A DNA stretch of 20,760 nt from positions 1 through 20,760 of IMG/VR virus record IMGVR_UViG_3300029448_000549. The stretch is one strand, 5' to 3'. Positions 2,417 through 20,760 of the stretch are shown here, piece after piece (the first letter of the stretch is position 1; every line of letters begins with the position of its first letter). The stretch comes from a virus. A model generated the notes under the pieces. That model saw nothing but the letters and a program-made list of their open reading frames with translations, was not told the DNA's origin and did no database searches. Made by a program: the position numbers and the translations under genes.

Positions 2417-2450
2417 CTATATAAAAAAATAGTAAAATAAAACTAAAATA

Positions 2451-2466
2451 TTTATATTATTGAATT
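2451..2466 (+). promoter_or_regulatory. Weak copy of the phage promoter-like element
   Basis: The 50-base gap before the ninG-like gene is almost pure A/T and contains TTTATATTAT at 2451-2460, six bases before the GTG start. It matches the first ten bases of the strong elements at 5300, 6987 and 20455 but then diverges (TGAATT instead of ATADT). It may be a weaker or earlier-acting version of the same promoter. Confidence 0.35.
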
Positions 2467-2859
2467 GTGAAAACTATAAGTAAATTAAAAAAGGAGTTAG
2501 ACAAATGGTTTAGTTTATTTATTAGATTAAGAAACGCAAGTAAAGACGGAATAGTAGAGTGTTGGACTTGTGGAAAAACAGCACACTATAAAAAGATGCA
2601 CGCAGGGCACTTTATGAGTAGGAAACACCACGCTACAAGGTGGAACGAAGAAAACGTACAGGTGCAATGTCCTAAGTGTAACTTATTCGGACAAGGGGAA
2701 CAATATACATTCGGGAAACTTATAGACGTTAGGATCGGTGAGGGCAAGAGTGAAGAACTACAAGAACTAAGTAGAACGACTGTTAAGTATATGCGACACG
2801 AATATGAAGATATGATAAAACACTACAAAGAAAAAGTAAATGCTATTAAAACCGATTAG
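2467..2859 (+). CDS. ninG: NinG/Rap-like recombination endonuclease
   Basis: This 130-residue protein carries the zinc-binding pattern of lambda NinG (Rap): ECWTCGK with Cys32 and Cys35, HAGHFMSR with His45 and His48, a conserved Trp-Asn (RWNEENV), then QCPKCN with Cys68 and Cys71. In lambda, Rap is a structure-specific nuclease that resolves D-loops and Holliday-type junctions during phage recombination. Length is shorter than lambda NinG but typical of Bacteroidota phage versions, which lack part of the N-terminal region. The start is GTG, downstream of a 50-base A/T-rich gap with a promoter-like element. The gene overlaps the next one by 20 bases. Confidence 0.85.
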   Translation: MKTISKLKKELDKWFSLFIRLRNASKDGIVECWTCGKTAHYKKMHAGHFMSRKHHATRWNEENVQVQCPKCNLFGQGEQYTFGKLIDVRIGEGKSEELQELSRTTVKYMRHEYEDMIKHYKEKVNAIKTD

Positions 2860-3208
2860 TATAAACTACCAGCACGAAATAGCTTTACAAGTGTATTTAG
2901 ATATGATAACTACAAGTATAAAAGACGTTACAAAAAACGAAGACAAATATAAAGACTTTATAGACGTAGCAAATATAATTATAGAACACCACAACAACTA
3001 TAGAAAAGATGTATTAGTACTTGCAAACTATCAAGACTTTATAAGTCTAATACCTACACATTTCACAGCTATGTTAAACGGATATTTAACAGGAATAGAA
3101 AACGAAAATAATAAAAATTCTGTTAGATTATATAAACACTTACTAAGTGAAGAAGCATATAACTTTATAGATAAAGTACAAGATTTAAAAATTGAACAAG
3201 ATATATAA
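2840..3208 (+). CDS. Hypothetical helical protein
   Basis: This 122-residue protein looks almost wholly alpha-helical, with heptad-like hydrophobic spacing (IALQVYLDMITTSI, FIDVANIIIEHHNNY). I recognise no family. The ATG lies within the end of the ninG-like gene and the end overlaps the sigma-like gene by 17 bases, which supports coupled translation in one operon. Confidence 0.6.
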   Translation: MLLKPISINYQHEIALQVYLDMITTSIKDVTKNEDKYKDFIDVANIIIEHHNNYRKDVLVLANYQDFISLIPTHFTAMLNGYLTGIENENNKNSVRLYKHLLSEEAYNFIDKVQDLKIEQDI

Positions 3209-3743
3209 AATATTAGCAGACCTAAGAGGTCACTTCGAGAAAATGACTTACGGACTTACTACCGACAAGAACGAAATAGACGAAGTAGTACAGGAATTTT
3301 ATTTATATATGTTACAGATGAACCCCGACACACTAAAAGGAATATACGACAAGGACGGAGAAAAGGGTTTAATAAGATACGGAGCAGTAGTAATACGTAG
3401 AAGTCTACAAAGTAAAAACAGTCCTTATTATTATAAGTATAAAAAATACTACACAAATTTAGCAGGTACTTCTACTTCAACTATTCTTAGTCAAGAAGCT
3501 TATCATAAAAGTATTTACAACTTACCAGAAGAAATAGTAGACAGTTACAAATGGAAAAAGTTAGAAGAAATAGATAAAGAGTTAGACAAGATGTACTGGT
3601 ACGACAGAGAACTATTTAAACTATATTATTACGAAACGAATACATTAGATAGTTTAGCAAAGAAAACAGGAATAAGTAGAAACAGTTTGTTTACTACAAT
3701 AGATAACGTAAGACAATTACTTAAAGATAAATTAAATGAATAG
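3192..3743 (+). CDS. Sigma-factor-like / helix-turn-helix transcription protein
   Basis: The 183-residue protein starts at TTG, overlapping the previous gene; the first in-frame ATG would remove 17 residues. The N-terminal half (EIDEVVQEFYLYMLQ, about 28-42) resembles the helical region-2 segment of extracytoplasmic-type sigma factors, where an E/D-rich helix followed by aromatic residues contacts RNA polymerase. The C-terminal part (YDRELFKLYYYETNTLDSLA then KKTGISRNSLFTTIDNVR, about 137-174) reads as a region-4-like helix-turn-helix. Small proteins of this kind in phages are often annotated as sigma-70-like. A role in switching transcription to the structural genes is inferred from position and from the repeated promoter-like element downstream. 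Confidence 0.55.
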   Translation: MNKIYKILADLRGHFEKMTYGLTTDKNEIDEVVQEFYLYMLQMNPDTLKGIYDKDGEKGLIRYGAVVIRRSLQSKNSPYYYKYKKYYTNLAGTSTSTILSQEAYHKSIYNLPEEIVDSYKWKKLEEIDKELDKMYWYDRELFKLYYYETNTLDSLAKKTGISRNSLFTTIDNVRQLLKDKLNE

Positions 3744-4131
3744 GTTCTTTGTAAATAAAGAAGTATATAAAGAACGGTTAGACACTTGTAGAAGTTGTGA
3801 CGAATATTTTAAACCTACAGGTAGCTGTAAAGTATGTGGTTGTTTTATGAGAATTAAAGCAAGTATGGGTGTTATGGAATGTCCTAACGAATACTGGTTA
3901 GCGACGCAAGAGTACGAAGCACCTAAAGAAATACCTACACACCTAAAAAACGAAATAAAGGAAGTATGGAAACTAATAGACAACGGACGAATAAAAGACA
4001 CAAAGAGTAAACAAAGACTAATAGAATTATATAATACAATACACGACACTACATACAGCGTAAATACAAATTGTAGTACCTGTTTAAAAAGTATGTATTT
4101 ATTTATGCAAGACGTAATAACTAAGATATGA
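3736..4131 (+). CDS. Zinc-binding phage protein of unknown function
   Basis: This 131-residue protein has a Cys-rich N-terminal half: Cys18, Cys21, Cys31, Cys34, Cys36 and Cys49 in the order C-x2-C-x9-C-x2-C-x-C-x12-C, ending in MECPNEYW. The arrangement is familiar from small zinc-finger proteins of many tailed phages. A second pair (NCSTCLK) lies near the C-terminus after a helical spacer. It starts inside the end of the sigma-like gene and its stop overlaps the next start (ATGA). Function is unknown; nucleic-acid or protein binding is a reasonable guess. Confidence 0.65.
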   Translation: MNRFFVNKEVYKERLDTCRSCDEYFKPTGSCKVCGCFMRIKASMGVMECPNEYWLATQEYEAPKEIPTHLKNEIKEVWKLIDNGRIKDTKSKQRLIELYNTIHDTTYSVNTNCSTCLKSMYLFMQDVITKI

Positions 4132-5067: not shown

Positions 5068-5293
5068 AACACACGCACAAAACAAATATTATTTTAAGTG
5101 TATAGTAATACCATTAGGTAACTACTTAGGTTATCATAAGTTCGAAATGCACGAAATACTAAAAGATCTGTTTATAGCAGATACAAGTAAAGAACTTAAT
5201 ACAAACGAATTTAAAGACTATTGCGAACAAATAAGGGTGTGGTCTATGTCGGAGTTTAACTTTACCTTAGAAGAACCCGAAACAAACAAATAA
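5060..5293 (+). CDS. Conserved phage protein, possibly recombination/replication accessory
   Basis: The 77-residue protein starts at GTG overlapping the previous gene by eight bases. It opens with RTHAQNKYYFKCIVIPL, then GYHKFEMHEILKDLFI and LNTNEFKDYCEQIRVWSMSE, ending with an acidic Pro-containing tail. The sequence QNxYYW...E(M/L)HExLK...T.EF..Y...I..W is a pattern I recall from short proteins in the nin-like regions of many phages, some of which are grouped with NinB. I am not sure of the family name. The last early gene before the terminase promoter element. Confidence 0.5.
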   Translation: MNRTHAQNKYYFKCIVIPLGNYLGYHKFEMHEILKDLFIADTSKELNTNEFKDYCEQIRVWSMSEFNFTLEEPETNK

Positions 5294-5299
5294 GACTTA

Positions 5300-5314
5300 T
5301 TTATATTATATAAT
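5300..5314 (+). promoter_or_regulatory. Promoter-like element before the terminase genes
   Basis: TTTATATTATATAAT ends directly at the ATG of the small terminase gene. It matches the elements at 6987, 16721, 18017 and 20455 almost base for base. The upstream bases contain GAAACAAACA 22 bases before the TTATATTAT core, loosely like the AAATCAAATA at the same distance in two other copies. If the core acts as the -10 region, the transcript would have almost no 5' leader. Confidence 0.6.
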
Positions 5315-5671
5315 ATGGAAAACGAACAGAAACGAACACAAGAGAATAAAAAGAAACTTGTAGAAGCTTTAGAAAAATCATTAGGTATTGTTACAGAAGC
5401 TTGCGATAAAGCACAACTAAGTAGAACACAGTTTTACAAATGGTATAAAGAAGACGAACACTTTAGAAAAGAAGTAGATAGTATAGAAGGTAAGTTTGTA
5501 GACTTTGCAGAAACACACTTAAAAGAACAGATTAAGAATAACAATACACAAGCTACAATATTTTATTTAAAGACACGAGGACGTAAAAGGGGTTACGGTG
5601 ACAGTTTAGACTTAACAAGTAATAACGAACCTATTACAATTAACGTAAAGATAAACGGGGTTGAATATTGA
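5315..5671 (+). CDS. terS: Terminase small subunit
   Basis: The 118-residue protein lies directly before the large terminase and overlaps it by 11 bases. Residues ~22-50 (LGIVTEACDKAQLSRTQFYK, then WYKEDEHFRKEV) form a helix-turn-helix of the type found in small terminases, which bind the packaging initiation site on phage DNA. The centre is helical (oligomerisation region), and ATIFYLKTRGRKRGYG at ~80-95 is the conserved C-terminal block of the Bacteroidota phage version. The ATG directly follows a promoter-like element. Confidence 0.82.
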   Translation: MENEQKRTQENKKKLVEALEKSLGIVTEACDKAQLSRTQFYKWYKEDEHFRKEVDSIEGKFVDFAETHLKEQIKNNNTQATIFYLKTRGRKRGYGDSLDLTSNNEPITINVKINGVEY

Positions 5672-6971
5672 CGCTAAATTTACTAAAACACAAGGTCAAG
5701 CGTTAGAGTACCTATTCGACAATAATACTACAGAAGTTTTATACGGTGGTGCAGCAGGTGGTGGTAAAAGTTTTATAGGTTGTGCTTGGATTATATTACT
5801 TTGTATTAAATATCCTAAGACAAGATACCTAATAGGACGTAGTAAATTAGACACACTAAAGAAAACGACATTAAATACTTTATTTGAAGTATGTAGTATA
5901 TACGGTATTAAGTCAGGAGAGCACTATTCTTTTAATGGTTCTACTAATATAATAACTTTCTTTAATGGTAGTGAAGTAATACTTAAAGACTTATTCTTAT
6001 ACCCTTCAGATCGTAACTTTGATAGTTTAGGTTCTTTAGAAATAACAGGTGCGTTTATAGACGAATGTAACCAGATAACAGAAAAAGCTAAAAACATAGT
6101 AGCAAGTAGAATACGTTATAAGTTAGACGAATACGGACTTATACCTAAAATGTTTTTAAGTTGTAACCCAGCTAAGAATTGGGTATATACAGAATACTAC
6201 AGACCAGCTAAAACAAATACACTACCATACTATAGAAAGTTTATACAAGCTTTAGTAGACGATAACGAATTTGTAAGTAAACACTATAAAGGACAATTAG
6301 AAAAACTAGACAGACTAAGTAAAGAACGTCTACTATTTGGGAATTGGGAATACGACGCTTCAGACGATAACCTAATAGAATACAATAGTATATTAAACCT
6401 ATTTAGTCAGACAGGTTTAGAAGGTAATAAATACATAACTTGTGACGTAGCAAGGTTCGGTACAGACAAATCAGTTGTTATGTTATGGAGTGGTTTAACA
6501 GTAACTAATATTAAGACCTTCGACACTAACACAATAACAGAACTTGCAGACTATATAAAGACACTACAACAAAAAGAAGGAGTTACAACGAATAACATAC
6601 TAGCAGACGAAGACGGTTTAGGAGGCGGTTTAATTGATATACTAAGAATAAGAGGGTTTCAAAATAACAGTAGACCTTTAAAGAACGAAAACTACCAGAA
6701 CCTTAAAACACAATGTTACTATAAGTTAGCAGACTTAGTTAATAAAGGTCAAGTAGGAATAGTAAACGACAACATAACTACAAGACAACATATTATAGAA
6801 GAACTAGAACAAGTACGATCTAAAGACCAAGACAAAGACAATAAGAATAAGATAGTAGACAAAGACACAGTTAAGGCTATTATAGGAAGGTCACCAGACT
6901 ACGCAGACTGTTTAGCTATGCGTATGTATTACGAAATAGACAGTAATTTCGGTAAGTACTTTGTACAGTAA
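5661..6971 (+). CDS. terL: Terminase large subunit (packaging ATPase-nuclease)
   Basis: The 436-residue protein has the full motor and nuclease signature. Walker A is GGAAGGGKS (29-37), Walker B GAFIDE (130-135) with catalytic Glu135, and the coupling motif is LSCNPAKNWV (166-175). The RNase H-like nuclease domain shows CDVARFGTDKS (Asp262), ADEDGLGGG (Asp316/Asp318) and SPDYADCLAMR (Asp416) near the C-terminus. It pumps DNA into the procapsid and cuts the concatemer. The start is TTG, 11 bases inside terS; no ATG is nearby and this start keeps the N-terminal KFTKTQGQAL segment expected before the Walker A motif. The usual downstream portal gene is not here. Confidence 0.95.
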   Translation: MNIDAKFTKTQGQALEYLFDNNTTEVLYGGAAGGGKSFIGCAWIILLCIKYPKTRYLIGRSKLDTLKKTTLNTLFEVCSIYGIKSGEHYSFNGSTNIITFFNGSEVILKDLFLYPSDRNFDSLGSLEITGAFIDECNQITEKAKNIVASRIRYKLDEYGLIPKMFLSCNPAKNWVYTEYYRPAKTNTLPYYRKFIQALVDDNEFVSKHYKGQLEKLDRLSKERLLFGNWEYDASDDNLIEYNSILNLFSQTGLEGNKYITCDVARFGTDKSVVMLWSGLTVTNIKTFDTNTITELADYIKTLQQKEGVTTNNILADEDGLGGGLIDILRIRGFQNNSRPLKNENYQNLKTQCYYKLADLVNKGQVGIVNDNITTRQHIIEELEQVRSKDQDKDNKNKIVDKDTVKAIIGRSPDYADCLAMRMYYEIDSNFGKYFVQ

Positions 6972-6986
6972 ACTAAAAACAACAAA

Positions 6987-7001
6987 TTTATATTATATAC
7001 T
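6987..7001 (+). promoter_or_regulatory. Promoter-like element before the tail module
   Basis: TTTATATTATATACT ends directly at the ATG of the tail-chaperone-like gene, in the 30-base gap after terL. It is one of five near-identical elements. All genes from here to 16700 follow with almost no gaps and no other copy, so this element probably drives the whole tail module. Confidence 0.62.
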
Positions 7002-7622
7002 ATGAAAGTAAAACTATTGAACGGTAAGAAGAAGTTAAGTTTTAATATACCAGAAAGTTTTAACGAATTAAACTTAGGAAGGTATCAGAGACTTATGGCA
7101 GTTCTTAAAAAAGATGAGGACGTACACGACATCGAAAAGGTTATAAGAATACTTAATTGTATTACGGATATACCAAAAAGACAATTGTACGGTTTGGATA
7201 TGAAAAGTATAGGTAAGTTAGGTAAACACTTAACTACGTTTTTAGAAACAGTACCTACAGACGAACTTAAACACTTTATAGAAATAGAAGGTGTAGAGTA
7301 TGGTTTCCATCCGAAGTTAGTAGATATGACTTTAGGGGAATTTGTAGACTTAGAAACATATACAGAAAACTTAGAAGAAAATCTACATAACATTCTAAGT
7401 ATATTATACAGACCTGTTACAGCAAAGAAGGACGACAAGTATAGAATAGAAGACTACGAACCTAACGAAGAACGAGCAGACCTATTTAAGAAACACTTAA
7501 AGGTTGAAGACTTTAACGGTGCTTCGGTTTTTTTTTACGATTTAGGAACTCAACTTTTAATCAATTCGAAGAAGTCTTCAATAGAGAAACTGAAGAAGAC
7601 GGATTTAGTCAAGACGGACTAG
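7002..7622 (+). CDS. Tail-assembly-chaperone-like protein, zero-frame product
   Basis: This 206-residue product begins with a beta-rich segment (KVKLLNGKKKLSFNIPES), then helical repeats, then NLHNILSILYRPV (~127-139) and a helical region rich in Glu. This layout is familiar from Bacteroidota phage proteins placed at the start of the tail module and is consistent with a tail assembly chaperone that holds the tape measure before tail tube assembly. The C-terminal ~30 residues after FFYDLGTQLL become Ser/Lys-rich and look unlike a natural ending, while the -1 frame continues with a convincing protein (next entry). A T9 run at 7528-7536 lies at the expected switch point. Confidence 0.65.
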   Translation: MKVKLLNGKKKLSFNIPESFNELNLGRYQRLMAVLKKDEDVHDIEKVIRILNCITDIPKRQLYGLDMKSIGKLGKHLTTFLETVPTDELKHFIEIEGVEYGFHPKLVDMTLGEFVDLETYTENLEENLHNILSILYRPVTAKKDDKYRIEDYEPNEERADLFKKHLKVEDFNGASVFFYDLGTQLLINSKKSSIEKLKKTDLVKTD

Positions 7623-16700: not shown

Positions 16701-16720
16701 AATCAAATAATAACGAATAA

Positions 16721-16737
16721 CTTATATTATATAGTAT
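16721..16737 (+). promoter_or_regulatory. Promoter-like element before the head module
   Basis: CTTATATTATATAGTAT ends directly at the ATG of the protease-like gene. The exact ten bases AAATCAAATA lie at 16700-16709, 22 bases upstream of the TTATATTAT core, the same spacing and sequence as at 17996-18005 before the scaffold gene. The pair suggests a two-part promoter. Confidence 0.66.
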
Positions 16738-17601
16738 ATGAAAAAGAAAACAACTAAAATCACAGAATTAGTTATAGACGAACAGAACGAAGCATTAGCG
16801 ATTGACGCGATATCGCTTGTTACCTCTCCAGCCTTGGAAGTAGACTTTGTATTTTTTGGTAAAGAAAAGAACAACTTAACCTTTGCTAAAGTAGACGAAG
16901 AAAAAAGAGAACTTATAGCACCAGCGTTAATACCTAATAAACAAATATACAGATACGACGCAAATACAGATAGTGACTATTACGTATACTTTTCAAAAGA
17001 TACTGTAAAGAAGGCAGCTTATAGTTACTTAAAACACAATAACCACCACAAAGCAACATACCAACACGAACAAAGAGTAGCGGGAGTATTAACTGTAGAA
17101 AGTTGGATAAAAGAAGGTGACCAGGACAAGTCTAAACTTTACGGTTTTAATTTAGCAGACGGTACTTGGTTTGTAAAAATGAAAATAGAAAACGACGATC
17201 TTTGGAATAAGATAAAAGAAGGTGAACTTAAAGGACTTTCAATAGAAGGATATTTTGTAGACAAATTAGAAAAAATGGGAAAACAATACACAGACGAAGA
17301 AATTAGAACTGCATACAAAGAACTACAAGCAGAAGGTAAAATATATAACTTTAATTTAATTAAAGATTTTGAAACAGCGTGGGCGTCCGGTTTTAGATTT
17401 ATAGAAAAAGCAGATAAAGAGTTAAACGAAGTTAAAAAAACTTATACAGCAGCCATAAAAGAATACGAAAACGCAATAGAAGCTTCAGAAAAAATACAAA
17501 AAAGCGCTAAAAATATAGGTATTGATATACCGCAAGAAATTATAACTAAAACTAAACAAGCTAAACAAGATATTAAAGACGCAAAAAATAAAATAAAATA
17601 A
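16738..17601 (+). CDS. XkdF-like capsid maturation protease
   Basis: The 287-residue protein matches the phage XkdF-type serine protease family (related to peptidase S78). The N-terminus reads ALAIDAISLVTSPALEVDFV, then YRYDANTDSDYYVYFSKDTV. A histidine-containing strand (TYQHEQRVAG, His110) and ELKGLSIEGYF (Ser168 in G-L-S-I-E-G) are at the positions where the family has its likely catalytic His and Ser. GTWFVKMKIENDDLW lies between them. The last ~70 residues (220-287) form a Lys/Glu coiled coil, consistent with an internal scaffold-like or processing segment. It would cleave scaffold and capsid proteins during head maturation. It lies directly after a promoter-like element and before the scaffold. 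Confidence 0.78.
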   Translation: MKKKTTKITELVIDEQNEALAIDAISLVTSPALEVDFVFFGKEKNNLTFAKVDEEKRELIAPALIPNKQIYRYDANTDSDYYVYFSKDTVKKAAYSYLKHNNHHKATYQHEQRVAGVLTVESWIKEGDQDKSKLYGFNLADGTWFVKMKIENDDLWNKIKEGELKGLSIEGYFVDKLEKMGKQYTDEEIRTAYKELQAEGKIYNFNLIKDFETAWASGFRFIEKADKELNEVKKTYTAAIKEYENAIEASEKIQKSAKNIGIDIPQEIITKTKQAKQDIKDAKNKIK

Positions 17602-17992: not shown

Positions 17993-18016
17993 TAAAAATC
18001 AAATAGAACTTAAACA

Positions 18017-18033
18017 ATTATATTATATAGTAT
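18017..18033 (+). promoter_or_regulatory. Promoter-like element before scaffold and capsid genes
   Basis: ATTATATTATATAGTAT lies 14 bases before the ATG of the scaffold gene, the only copy separated from its gene; the space AAAACAAAATTAAA is A-rich like Bacteroidota translation start regions. AAATCAAATA at 17996-18005 is 22 bases upstream of the core, as at 16700. This element probably gives high expression of scaffold, capsid and tail-tube genes up to the terminator. Confidence 0.66.
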
Positions 18034-18047
18034 AAAACAAAATTAAA

Positions 18048-18749
18048 ATGGAATTAAAAACACAAATCTTAAAAGCTTTAGGTCTTAACAAAGACGAAGC
18101 AACTAACTTAGAATTTCAAGCTAAACTTATTGACGGTACTATTATTGTGAGTTCTGCTGACGAATTAGCAGCGGGTGTAGATATTGCTATACTTGCAGAA
18201 GACGGAACGACTATGGCGTTACCTGTAGGACAATACGAAACAGAAGACGGAGTAGGTTTTTCTGTAGAAGAAGAAGGTATTATATCTGAAATTAACGAAA
18301 CTGAAGAAACAGAAGAAGTTGAAACAGAAGAAGAGGAAGTAGAAATGGAAGAAGAAGTAGTAGAAGACGTTATAGAAGAAGTAGTAGAACCTTCAGAAGT
18401 AAACGAAAGGTTACCTAAGAAAATTAAAACAACAGAGGAAGTAGAATTTAATAAAGAAGAAGTTATCGAAGAAATCGGTGCTGTTATTAAAGAATTACTT
18501 ACTGAAGTTAGAAACGATGTTAGTAGATTATCGGCAGAACTTGACGAAATGAAAGGAACTAACGAAACATTAGAAATCGAAAAAGAAACTTTATCTGCAC
18601 AATTAGAAGAACTTTCTAAAGAACCAGCTTCTGAACCTGTAACTACAAACAAGTTTTCTAATAAAAAGAACACTAAAGAATTGTCTACCTCTGACTATAG
18701 AAGTATGAGTAGACAAGAAAAATACTGGTATAACATTAATAATAACTAA
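18048..18749 (+). CDS. Acidic scaffold-like head assembly protein
   Basis: The 233-residue protein has an N-terminal beta-like domain (LEFQAKLIDGTIIVSSADEL, ILAEDGTTMALPVGQY, ~20-75), then an extremely acidic tract (~82-120, mostly Glu with Val and Thr) and a coiled coil (~135-192). The last ~30 residues are basic and aromatic (SRQEKYWYN), which could bind the capsid shell. The layout and its position directly before the major capsid gene match scaffold proteins of Bacteroidota phages, which shape the procapsid and are removed or cleaved by the protease encoded upstream. It follows a promoter-like element by 14 bases. Confidence 0.68.
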   Translation: MELKTQILKALGLNKDEATNLEFQAKLIDGTIIVSSADELAAGVDIAILAEDGTTMALPVGQYETEDGVGFSVEEEGIISEINETEETEEVETEEEEVEMEEEVVEDVIEEVVEPSEVNERLPKKIKTTEEVEFNKEEVIEEIGAVIKELLTEVRNDVSRLSAELDEMKGTNETLEIEKETLSAQLEELSKEPASEPVTTNKFSNKKNTKELSTSDYRSMSRQEKYWYNINNN

Positions 18750-20285: not shown

Positions 20286-20444
20286 ATGTATAAACTAAAA
20301 GAACAATACAAAGGTGTTACAGTAAATAAAACGGGTAGAATGATTATATTAGATAACGTAAGATCTAACGAAGTAGAATTATTAGGAGTAGAACACTTCT
20401 TTACAAAGACTAAGAAAAAAACAGTTTCAACAAAAGAAAAATAA
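20286..20444 (+). CDS. Small conserved head-region protein
   Basis: ATG at 20286 opens a 52-residue frame ending TAA at 20442-20444. It reads MYKLKEQYKGVTVNKTGRMI, then ILDNVRSNEVELLGVEHFF, and a Lys/Thr-rich tail. The LDN...E.LG.E.FF pattern is one I recall from short proteins next to head-completion genes in Bacteroidota phages; function is unknown. It is the first gene after the terminator and has only an A-rich stretch upstream, so it may depend on read-through or an unseen promoter. Confidence 0.55.
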   Translation: MYKLKEQYKGVTVNKTGRMIILDNVRSNEVELLGVEHFFTKTKKKTVSTKEK

Positions 20445-20454
20445 ATTACTTGTT

Positions 20455-20469
20455 TTTATATTATATAGT
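20455..20469 (+). promoter_or_regulatory. Promoter-like element before the gene at 20470
   Basis: TTTATATTATATAGT ends directly at the ATG at 20470. It is the fifth strong copy of the element, with AAGAAAAATA 22 bases upstream of the TTATATTAT core, partly like the AAATCAAATA of two others. It would start a new transcription unit running out of the window. Confidence 0.62.
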
Positions 20470-20760
20470 ATGATAACAGGAGTTTACGGGAGTACAGTAA
20501 CAGCATATTTAACGTTAGAAGAAAAGAGAATAAATACAACAGTAGCAAAAACTGCAATAAGATATTTATTTAAGTTTACTAACGATATGACTAAAGACGT
20601 AAAGTATAGTTACGCAGAAAGTTTAACGCATAACGACAGATACGTTAAATGTGAGTTCTTACACAATACTACAGACGACCTATATATGTATAAAATAAAC
20701 TTCAAACCGTACGGGTTTTGGAAATACGAAGTTTACGAGGTTAGTTGGACGGGTGCAGTA
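20470..20760 (+). CDS. Conserved phage structural protein, N-terminal part (3' truncated)
   Basis: ATG at 20470 directly follows a promoter-like element, and the frame is still open at the window edge (97 codons). The visible part reads VYGSTVTAYLTLEEKRINTT, IRYLFKFTNDMTKDVKYSYA and GFWKYEVYEVSW, a pattern I recall from conserved, beta-rich virion-associated proteins of Bacteroidota phages in the head/tail region. The molecular role is unknown. The rest of the gene is outside the window, so domains downstream cannot be judged. Confidence 0.6.
   Translation, partial: MITGVYGSTVTAYLTLEEKRINTTVAKTAIRYLFKFTNDMTKDVKYSYAESLTHNDRYVKCEFLHNTTDDLYMYKINFKPYGFWKYEVYEVSWTGAV

Follow-up and report, generated by a model that had tools for sequence, protein, structure and literature searches.

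Does a phage that carries a sigma-like gene also carry the promoters that its product reads? The question is raised by an IMG/VR virus record of 20,760 bases, analyzed here over its whole length and called the window. An earlier note on this DNA described an open reading frame starting at TTG, with a region-2-like helix and a region-4-like helix-turn-helix (HTH), upstream of five promoter-like elements. It proposed that protein and elements form a pair, and that structure prediction, profile searches against sigma factors, and the joint occurrence of gene and element among related phages would serve as checks. Our comparisons of sequences and predicted structures suggest that the reading frame encodes a phage sigma factor that would direct host polymerase to about five near-leaderless late phage promoters; we put the probability of this reading at roughly 0.88.

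The gene lies on the plus strand at 3192..3743 and encodes 183 amino acids. It belongs to a tight operon that runs from a NinG-like endonuclease gene (2467..2859, plus strand) through a gene of unknown function and the sigma-like gene to a DUF6171 gene (3736..4131, plus strand); the NinG-like and DUF6171 genes are conserved neighbors, upstream and downstream, respectively. We regard the reading frame as a real gene because one tblastn scan of IMG/VR confirmed 369 relatives and because dN/dS is 0.06 to 0.37 in eight pairs. The best 80 of these 369 relatives were retained, and after further scans the final set holds 218 gene-bearing loci, some of which share one contig, with 151 distinct proteins. 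At the codon aligned to residue 1, these proteins have ATG in 130 cases, TTG in 13, GTG in 4, another codon in 2, and a gap in 2; the TTG at 3192 is therefore very likely the true start. Among the named phages of INPHARED, searched with two members of the family as queries, the gene was not found; two Listeria matches to the protein were short and weak.

The protein has the ECF-like layout of sigma2, linker, and sigma4: a sigma2-like domain at about residues 1–91, a flexible linker at 90–117, and a sigma4-like domain at 119–181. An AlphaFold model of middling confidence (mean pLDDT 72.9) places helices within 2–91 and 119–180 and has low confidence at 90–117. The two domains stand in sigma order and leave no room for sigma1.1 or sigma3 domains. 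The PDB structures that match the model are almost exclusively sigma factors, the closest being SigL of Mycobacterium (VIA-align Z 8.9), with a best Foldseek E of just 1.6e-3. VIA-align aligns the model to SigL, SigH, RpoE, and others with Z up to 8.9, a size that helical proteins generally can reach without kinship; that a single family fills the match list nevertheless argues for sigma kinship despite the modest Z. Single domains superpose at 1.2–4.7 Å; taken together they give a large rmsd, since their arrangement is not the same.

Profile comparisons depend on the depth of the alignments. Taken alone, the window protein matches Pfam, PHROGs, and PDB sequences too weakly to decide its family; the family profile against PDB sequences reaches a best E of 0.12, to a designed protein, and hhalign against RpoE alone gives a probability of 0.3%. 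The match emerged only after both partners had been deepened into alignments: 150 phage rows and 22 ECF proteins give a probability of 96.8 over 151 columns, with an E of 2.3e-10 that applies to this one single comparison, and phage residues 10–177 are paired with RpoE 28–181. The window protein scores 25.9 bits against TIGR02937, below the curated cut-off of 42.9, and a relative that is 61% identical to it (L209) scores 50.7 bits, above the cut-off; 49 of 50 aligned members match this model at E≤1e-5. Pfam Sigma70_r4 is matched by the window protein at E 0.019 and by 29 of the 50 members at 0.01, Sigma70_r2 by just 2 of the 50 at 0.01, and the PHROG named RNA polymerase sigma factor by 36 of the 50. 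Viral matches to the protein include phage proteins annotated as sigma-70/ECF. The start codon, the two helical regions, and the sigma kinship proposed in the earlier note are all supported by the alignment of relatives, the model, and the family-level profile comparison.

The candidate promoter element was derived by a seed search and a weight matrix over relatives. Numbered with the first T of TATTATATA as 0, it consists of [AC]AA[AC]TAAA at -21 to -14, a 12-nt gap, and (A/C)TATTATATAnTA; the core within it is TATTATATA. Taken as a putative promoter, it would consist of a -35-like box followed, at the usual promoter spacing, by a -10-like TATTAT. The window holds five elements, all on the strand of the sigma-like gene and, as had been noticed before, downstream of it. 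E1 (5280..5315, core TATTATATA at 5304, ATG at 5315) precedes the genes for the terminase small and large subunits; E2 (6967..7002, core at 6991, ATG at 7002) precedes a block running up to a tape measure-like protein. E3 (16701..16736, core at 16725, ATG at 16738) stands before a gene matching head maturation proteases. E4 (17997..18032, core at 18021, ATG at 18048) stands before an acidic gene, which from its position may be scaffold-like, and a gene that weakly matches a head-structural family. E5 (20435..20470, core at 20459, ATG at 20470) precedes a gene of unknown function.

In the window, the weight matrix finds these five sites, with scores of 24–38, at every threshold from 12 to 20, and 40 dinucleotide shuffles per threshold yield at most one match, in one shuffle; the five belonged to the 72 sites from which the matrix was built. 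When as many as 3 mismatches are allowed, the plain 16-mer has 14 matches on both strands together, whereas 100 shuffles average 2.3 and never exceed 8.

Among relatives the element nearly always points one way: 166 sigma/terL loci, some overlapping and together 1.85 Mb, hold 271 plus-strand and 4 minus-strand matches. Of 37 long records (23–36 kb, all with the gene, given with no completeness estimate), 28 hold four to six copies, which follow the gene in a similar order. Five of the 37 have fewer at the threshold, namely none in G009 and one each in G010, G018, G026, and G028. One long record has a 123-base end repeat (G020), and another has part of the gene at both ends (G017). A weak element-like site (2431..2466, plus strand, score 11.3) precedes the operon that runs from NinG to the sigma-like gene in the window; sites scoring at least 10 occur at this place in 13 of 23 loci of the window's sigma clade versus 0 of 85 others. 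In that clade only, the operon may be under positive feedback, the sigma factor regulating its own expression through the weak upstream element.

The exact 16-mer core, TATATTATATANTATG, was tried as a specific marker and rejected: at least 120 stretches match it, and 3 of those listed show the sigma gene on the stretch itself. When the full matrix is applied to the stretches listed, at least 120 in number, 17 score 14 or more, and the gene is seen on 2 of these 17; the remaining 15 appear, for the most part, to be pieces of late regions from this phage group, and the matches in L105, L109, L190, and L194 may be due to chance. A k-mer enrichment was dominated by repeated coding words; the variant TTCTATTATATA first appeared there. 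Since TATATTATATANTATG requires an A before TATTATATA, the pattern is biased towards A, and the scan turned up one element with A in some contigs whose other elements have C. Because of this mixture within contigs, all elements of the 37 long records were read.

Immediately before TATTATATA, the window's clade has A and most other clades have C; this base is tracked by the identity of residue 76 of the sigma-like protein, which in the window is Asn (codon AAC, 3417..3419, plus strand). Among 213 distinct sites from gene-bearing loci, 162 pair Arg with C, 1 pairs Lys with C, 48 pair Asn, His, Tyr, or Thr with A, and 2 pair Arg with A; a rule of Arg or Lys with C, and of Asn, His, Tyr, or Thr with A, is obeyed by 211. 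This rule was first framed as Arg versus not-Arg and was widened after the one Lys-C site. Lys occurs in L404, G026 (L388), and G028 (L392), each with one scored element that has C, so that the rule extends to a second basic residue. Lower-scoring sites outside the earlier set obey it in 11 of 11 cases. The 37 long records, which share 68 of the 213 sites, agree at 139 of 144 sites: Arg or Lys goes with C at 106 of 111 and with A at 5, and Asn, His, or Thr goes with A at 33 of 33. The five exceptions have A despite Arg76, and four of them are at E3 (G005, G015, G021, and G030); E3 with A may be a differently tuned promoter. Six further stretches (L093, L110, L119, L133, L159, and L183) probably show the same E3 with A on contigs whose other elements have C; no sigma gene was found on these six stretches.

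The pair formed by residue 76 and this base ranks first of 3400 pairs of variable sigma column and element position and accounts for 92% of the base entropy; if Arg and Lys are treated as one class, residue and base agree for 121 of the 122 distinct proteins. On a tree from which residues 74–78 were left out, there are four changes of the base and four of the residue class. When 3–6 changes are placed at random, a procedure that is not a full evolutionary model, none of 100,000 trials reaches the observed agreement, and this holds for all eight settings. An independent-pairs test finds 2 pairs if starred branches alone are counted and 4 if every branch is, none of them in the opposite direction; with 2–4 pairs, significance is out of reach. 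On the sigma tree the element base changes 3 times for E1 and 3 times for E2; it changes 5 times for E1 on the terL1 tree, once for E1 on the terL2 tree, and 4 times for E2 on the gp7002 tree. On the terL2 tree the sigma clade likewise changes once. Tree congruence was rejected as proof of the pairing, the trees of neighboring genes being partly congruent with the sigma tree.

Sigma region 2.4 reads the upstream edge of the -10 box. The hhalign match puts residue 76 at A82 of RpoE, in region 2.4, and an alignment by eye puts it up to two helical turns later, so the claim is limited to the region 2.4 area; there, a residue that covaries with the base at the upstream edge of the -10-like box fits sigma geometry. 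The covariation provides a direct link between protein and element.

It also bears on the most serious alternative, in which the protein is an activator or repressor with a sigma-like HTH, the element is its operator, and a host sigma factor makes the start. The C-terminus does match other HTH families weakly (Mga, UPF0122, and DUF134), and region 2 is divergent and tyrosine-rich, both as such a regulator might have it. An activator or repressor, however, accounts poorly for sigma2-like and sigma4-like domains that are both present and in sigma order, for a covarying residue that sits in the sigma2-like domain and answers to the base at the -10 upstream edge, or for an element of fixed spacing and nearly uniform direction that mostly runs into a start codon. 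We consider this alternative quite unlikely.

The distribution of gene and element speaks for a sigma factor with its own promoters as well. Of 78 terL loci (L211–L288), 24 extend 6.7 kb or more upstream of terL, and all 24 carry the sigma gene; at 6.0 kb or more, the gene is present in 27 of 28, and the exception, L255, ends inside the region where its close relative L260 has it. In a sister clade, located through the terminase of Flavobacterium phage 11b, 83 loci (1.03 Mb) hold no sigma gene and one weak element match, on the minus strand, with a score of 15.5. These are 80 IMG/VR loci and three named phages (11b, Cellulophaga phi10:1 minus its first 4 kb, and Polaribacter P12002L); 11b is counted twice, as L290 among the 80 is 11b itself, and the absence rests partly on fragments, 24 of the 80 loci having at least 6.7 kb upstream of terL. 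Element and gene keep company as the earlier note had expected of a true pair, and the pairing is strongly supported by this distribution taken with the covariation of residue 76. Neither outcome that the note had named as refuting was observed: the predicted fold is sigma-like, and relatives with the element do have the gene wherever their sequence reaches far enough. The joint distribution alone could be explained by shared ancestry.

Speaking against shared ancestry as the whole explanation, this one element stands in front of either of two terminase types that are clearly different. Different large subunits lie between E1 and E2 (L048:4849–6060 versus window 5661–6971), even where the sigma genes are near-identical, as in the window and L002, whose sigma proteins are 96% identical; on the sigma tree the terminase type changes 13 times and the element base 3 times. 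The two types are called clearly different rather than unrelated: hmmsearch of type against type finds nothing, and hhalign gives a probability of 22%. Two short fragments (L063 and L204) matched both terminase profiles.

Shared ancestry is the ground of a second alternative: that a host sigma factor, either sigmaA or one of the ECF kind, uses the element as its promoter, and the phage protein is merely co-inherited. Gene and element are confined to one phage group as far as searched. We infer a Bacteroidota host from the terminase relatives and from a match to a MAG (L210); according to PMC9723704, the Bacteroidota consensus is TAnnTTTG for the -7 box and TTTG for the -33 box. The elements of clade A contain TATATT, in agreement with positions one to six of that box, but most relatives have TTTCTATTATATA, without its TA and TTTG. 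Across ten records, the pattern TTTG-N17-21-TAnnTTTG on the coding strand coincides with no element and has five matches elsewhere; its minus-strand matches include three at E2, antisense (G001, G020, and G008). A host factor would, moreover, leave unexplained why relatives that lack the gene also lack the element and why residue 76 covaries with an element base. We judge this alternative very improbable.

The distance from element to start codon is short under the favored reading of a phage sigma factor with its own promoters. Among 202 distinct sites with enough downstream sequence, an ATG stands exactly at offset 11 from the start of TATTATATA in 122, the first A of this ATG lying inside the scored matrix and its G outside; an ATG stands at offsets 9–15 in 157, and in 36 the start codon is at 34–46. 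Given elements so close to start codons, most transcripts would be leaderless or near-leaderless, provided that the -10 box and the transcription start are spaced as usual. For comparison, leaderless mRNAs make up 5.5% of those examined in Flavobacterium psychrophilum, according to PMC9723704. That the element is instead a translation or processing signal at start codons, and no promoter, is scarcely credible: the frequent offset-11 ATG would suit such a signal, as would the lack of Shine-Dalgarno sequences in Bacteroidota described in PMC9723704 and PMC6847099, but about five genes per genome carry the element, more than one in six sites has its start codon 34–46 nt off, the spacing of the upstream box is fixed and -35-like, and the element covaries with a residue of the protein.

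In the mechanism that we propose, a small two-domain (ECF-like, group IV) sigma factor would be expressed from the NinG operon, probably in early or mid infection, and would bind host core RNA polymerase. The polymerase would then be guided to about five phage promoters that host sigmaA would be unable to read: the sigma4 domain would contact the -35-like box [AC]AA[AC]TAAA, the sigma2 domain the -10-like box (A/C)TATTATATA, and residue 76 would read the base pair immediately upstream of the -10 box. Transcripts would begin at or beside the ATG, and the terminase, tail, and head genes would be expressed as leaderless or nearly leaderless late mRNAs. The comparisons show the gene, its fold class, the element, the shared distribution of the two, and the covariation of residue and base. 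Core binding, the transcription start site, and the early-to-late timing are what we infer in this scheme, which would amount to the complete temporal control circuit that the earlier note envisaged.

Phage proteins that redirect transcription are well known. T4 gp55 and SPO1 gp28 turn the polymerase of the host to promoters of late or middle phage genes, as is proposed for the protein described here; in T4, gp33 and the gp45 clamp also take part in late transcription. The sigma factors of phages phiEco32 and 7-11 are ECF-like. In the part of PMC4331800 considered, phiEco32 and Salmonella phage 7-11 have phage sigma factors with late promoters of their own: a conserved, low-copy motif accompanies the sigma factor, and the long form of the motif precedes structural (late) genes. 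The window likewise has a phage-encoded sigma-like gene and a phage-specific motif before late structural genes. The differences, within what that same part of the source covers, are several. The 7-11 motif is TGTGATGTTATA, 7-11 motifs sit downstream of an anti-sigma gene, and the hosts differ too; in the present group, most promoters extend into the start codon, and relatives show a visible switch of residue and base.

Measured against ECF sigma factors (group IV, TIGR02937), with Escherichia coli RpoE as a yardstick, the protein is alike in its sigma2-linker-sigma4 layout, its length, and its C-terminal HTH. It is unlike RpoE in sequence, with 11% identity in the 151-column hhalign alignment, and its -10 box is AT-rich; the likely ECF box of F. 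psychrophilum (SM6) holds CGT (PMC9723704). No description of this sigma family or of its element was found in the open PMC literature by title or abstract. The family and its specificity switch appear to be new, and phage late sigma factors as a kind are already known.

A more specific claim is that residue 76 and one base set the specificity of this late sigma factor, and that the two switched together about four times across the late promoters; we hold the chances for and against it to be evenly balanced. If it is true, these phages provide a natural, easily read sigma-promoter code and show a sigma factor and its whole regulon changing specificity stepwise, and the E3 sites with A for C in some Arg76 genomes could be intermediates. 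The switch may then also insulate the late programs of co-infecting relatives. A widespread group of uncultured phages gains a concrete candidate for its late-gene switch, and a phage sigma family is added that the two INPHARED queries of named phages did not show. The rule of one residue and one base is testable, with natural variants on both sides, so that coevolution of sigma factor and regulon can be studied directly. Short promoters that end in the start codon are possible orthogonal promoter parts for Bacteroidota.

Several further observations concern single records or neighboring features. The L209 relative (PAPR01000004.1) is a 36-kb phage-like contig in a MAG labelled Pseudooceanicola (Alphaproteobacteria), where it is perhaps misbinned. 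Close to the ends of record G033 (L483 and L484) lie two NinG pieces together with two sigma genes that differ from each other; the record is either a strain-mixed circular assembly or a case of a second copy. A PAPS reductase-like gene lies at 589–1440 of the window (phrog_424, E 2.2e-44). Just 3' of the element, 40 of the 213 sites have a palindrome (TTGATTAATCAA, TTGGTTAATCAA, TTGAATAATCAA, or CAGTTAACT); the window has none downstream of its elements. The palindrome lies 14–18 nt past the start of the E1 core (L002, L004, L024, L034, L048, L052, L056, L057, and others). At palindrome-bearing sites the ATG is displaced by about 28 nt, and the second terminase type follows in the cases inspected; the palindrome is a possible operator.
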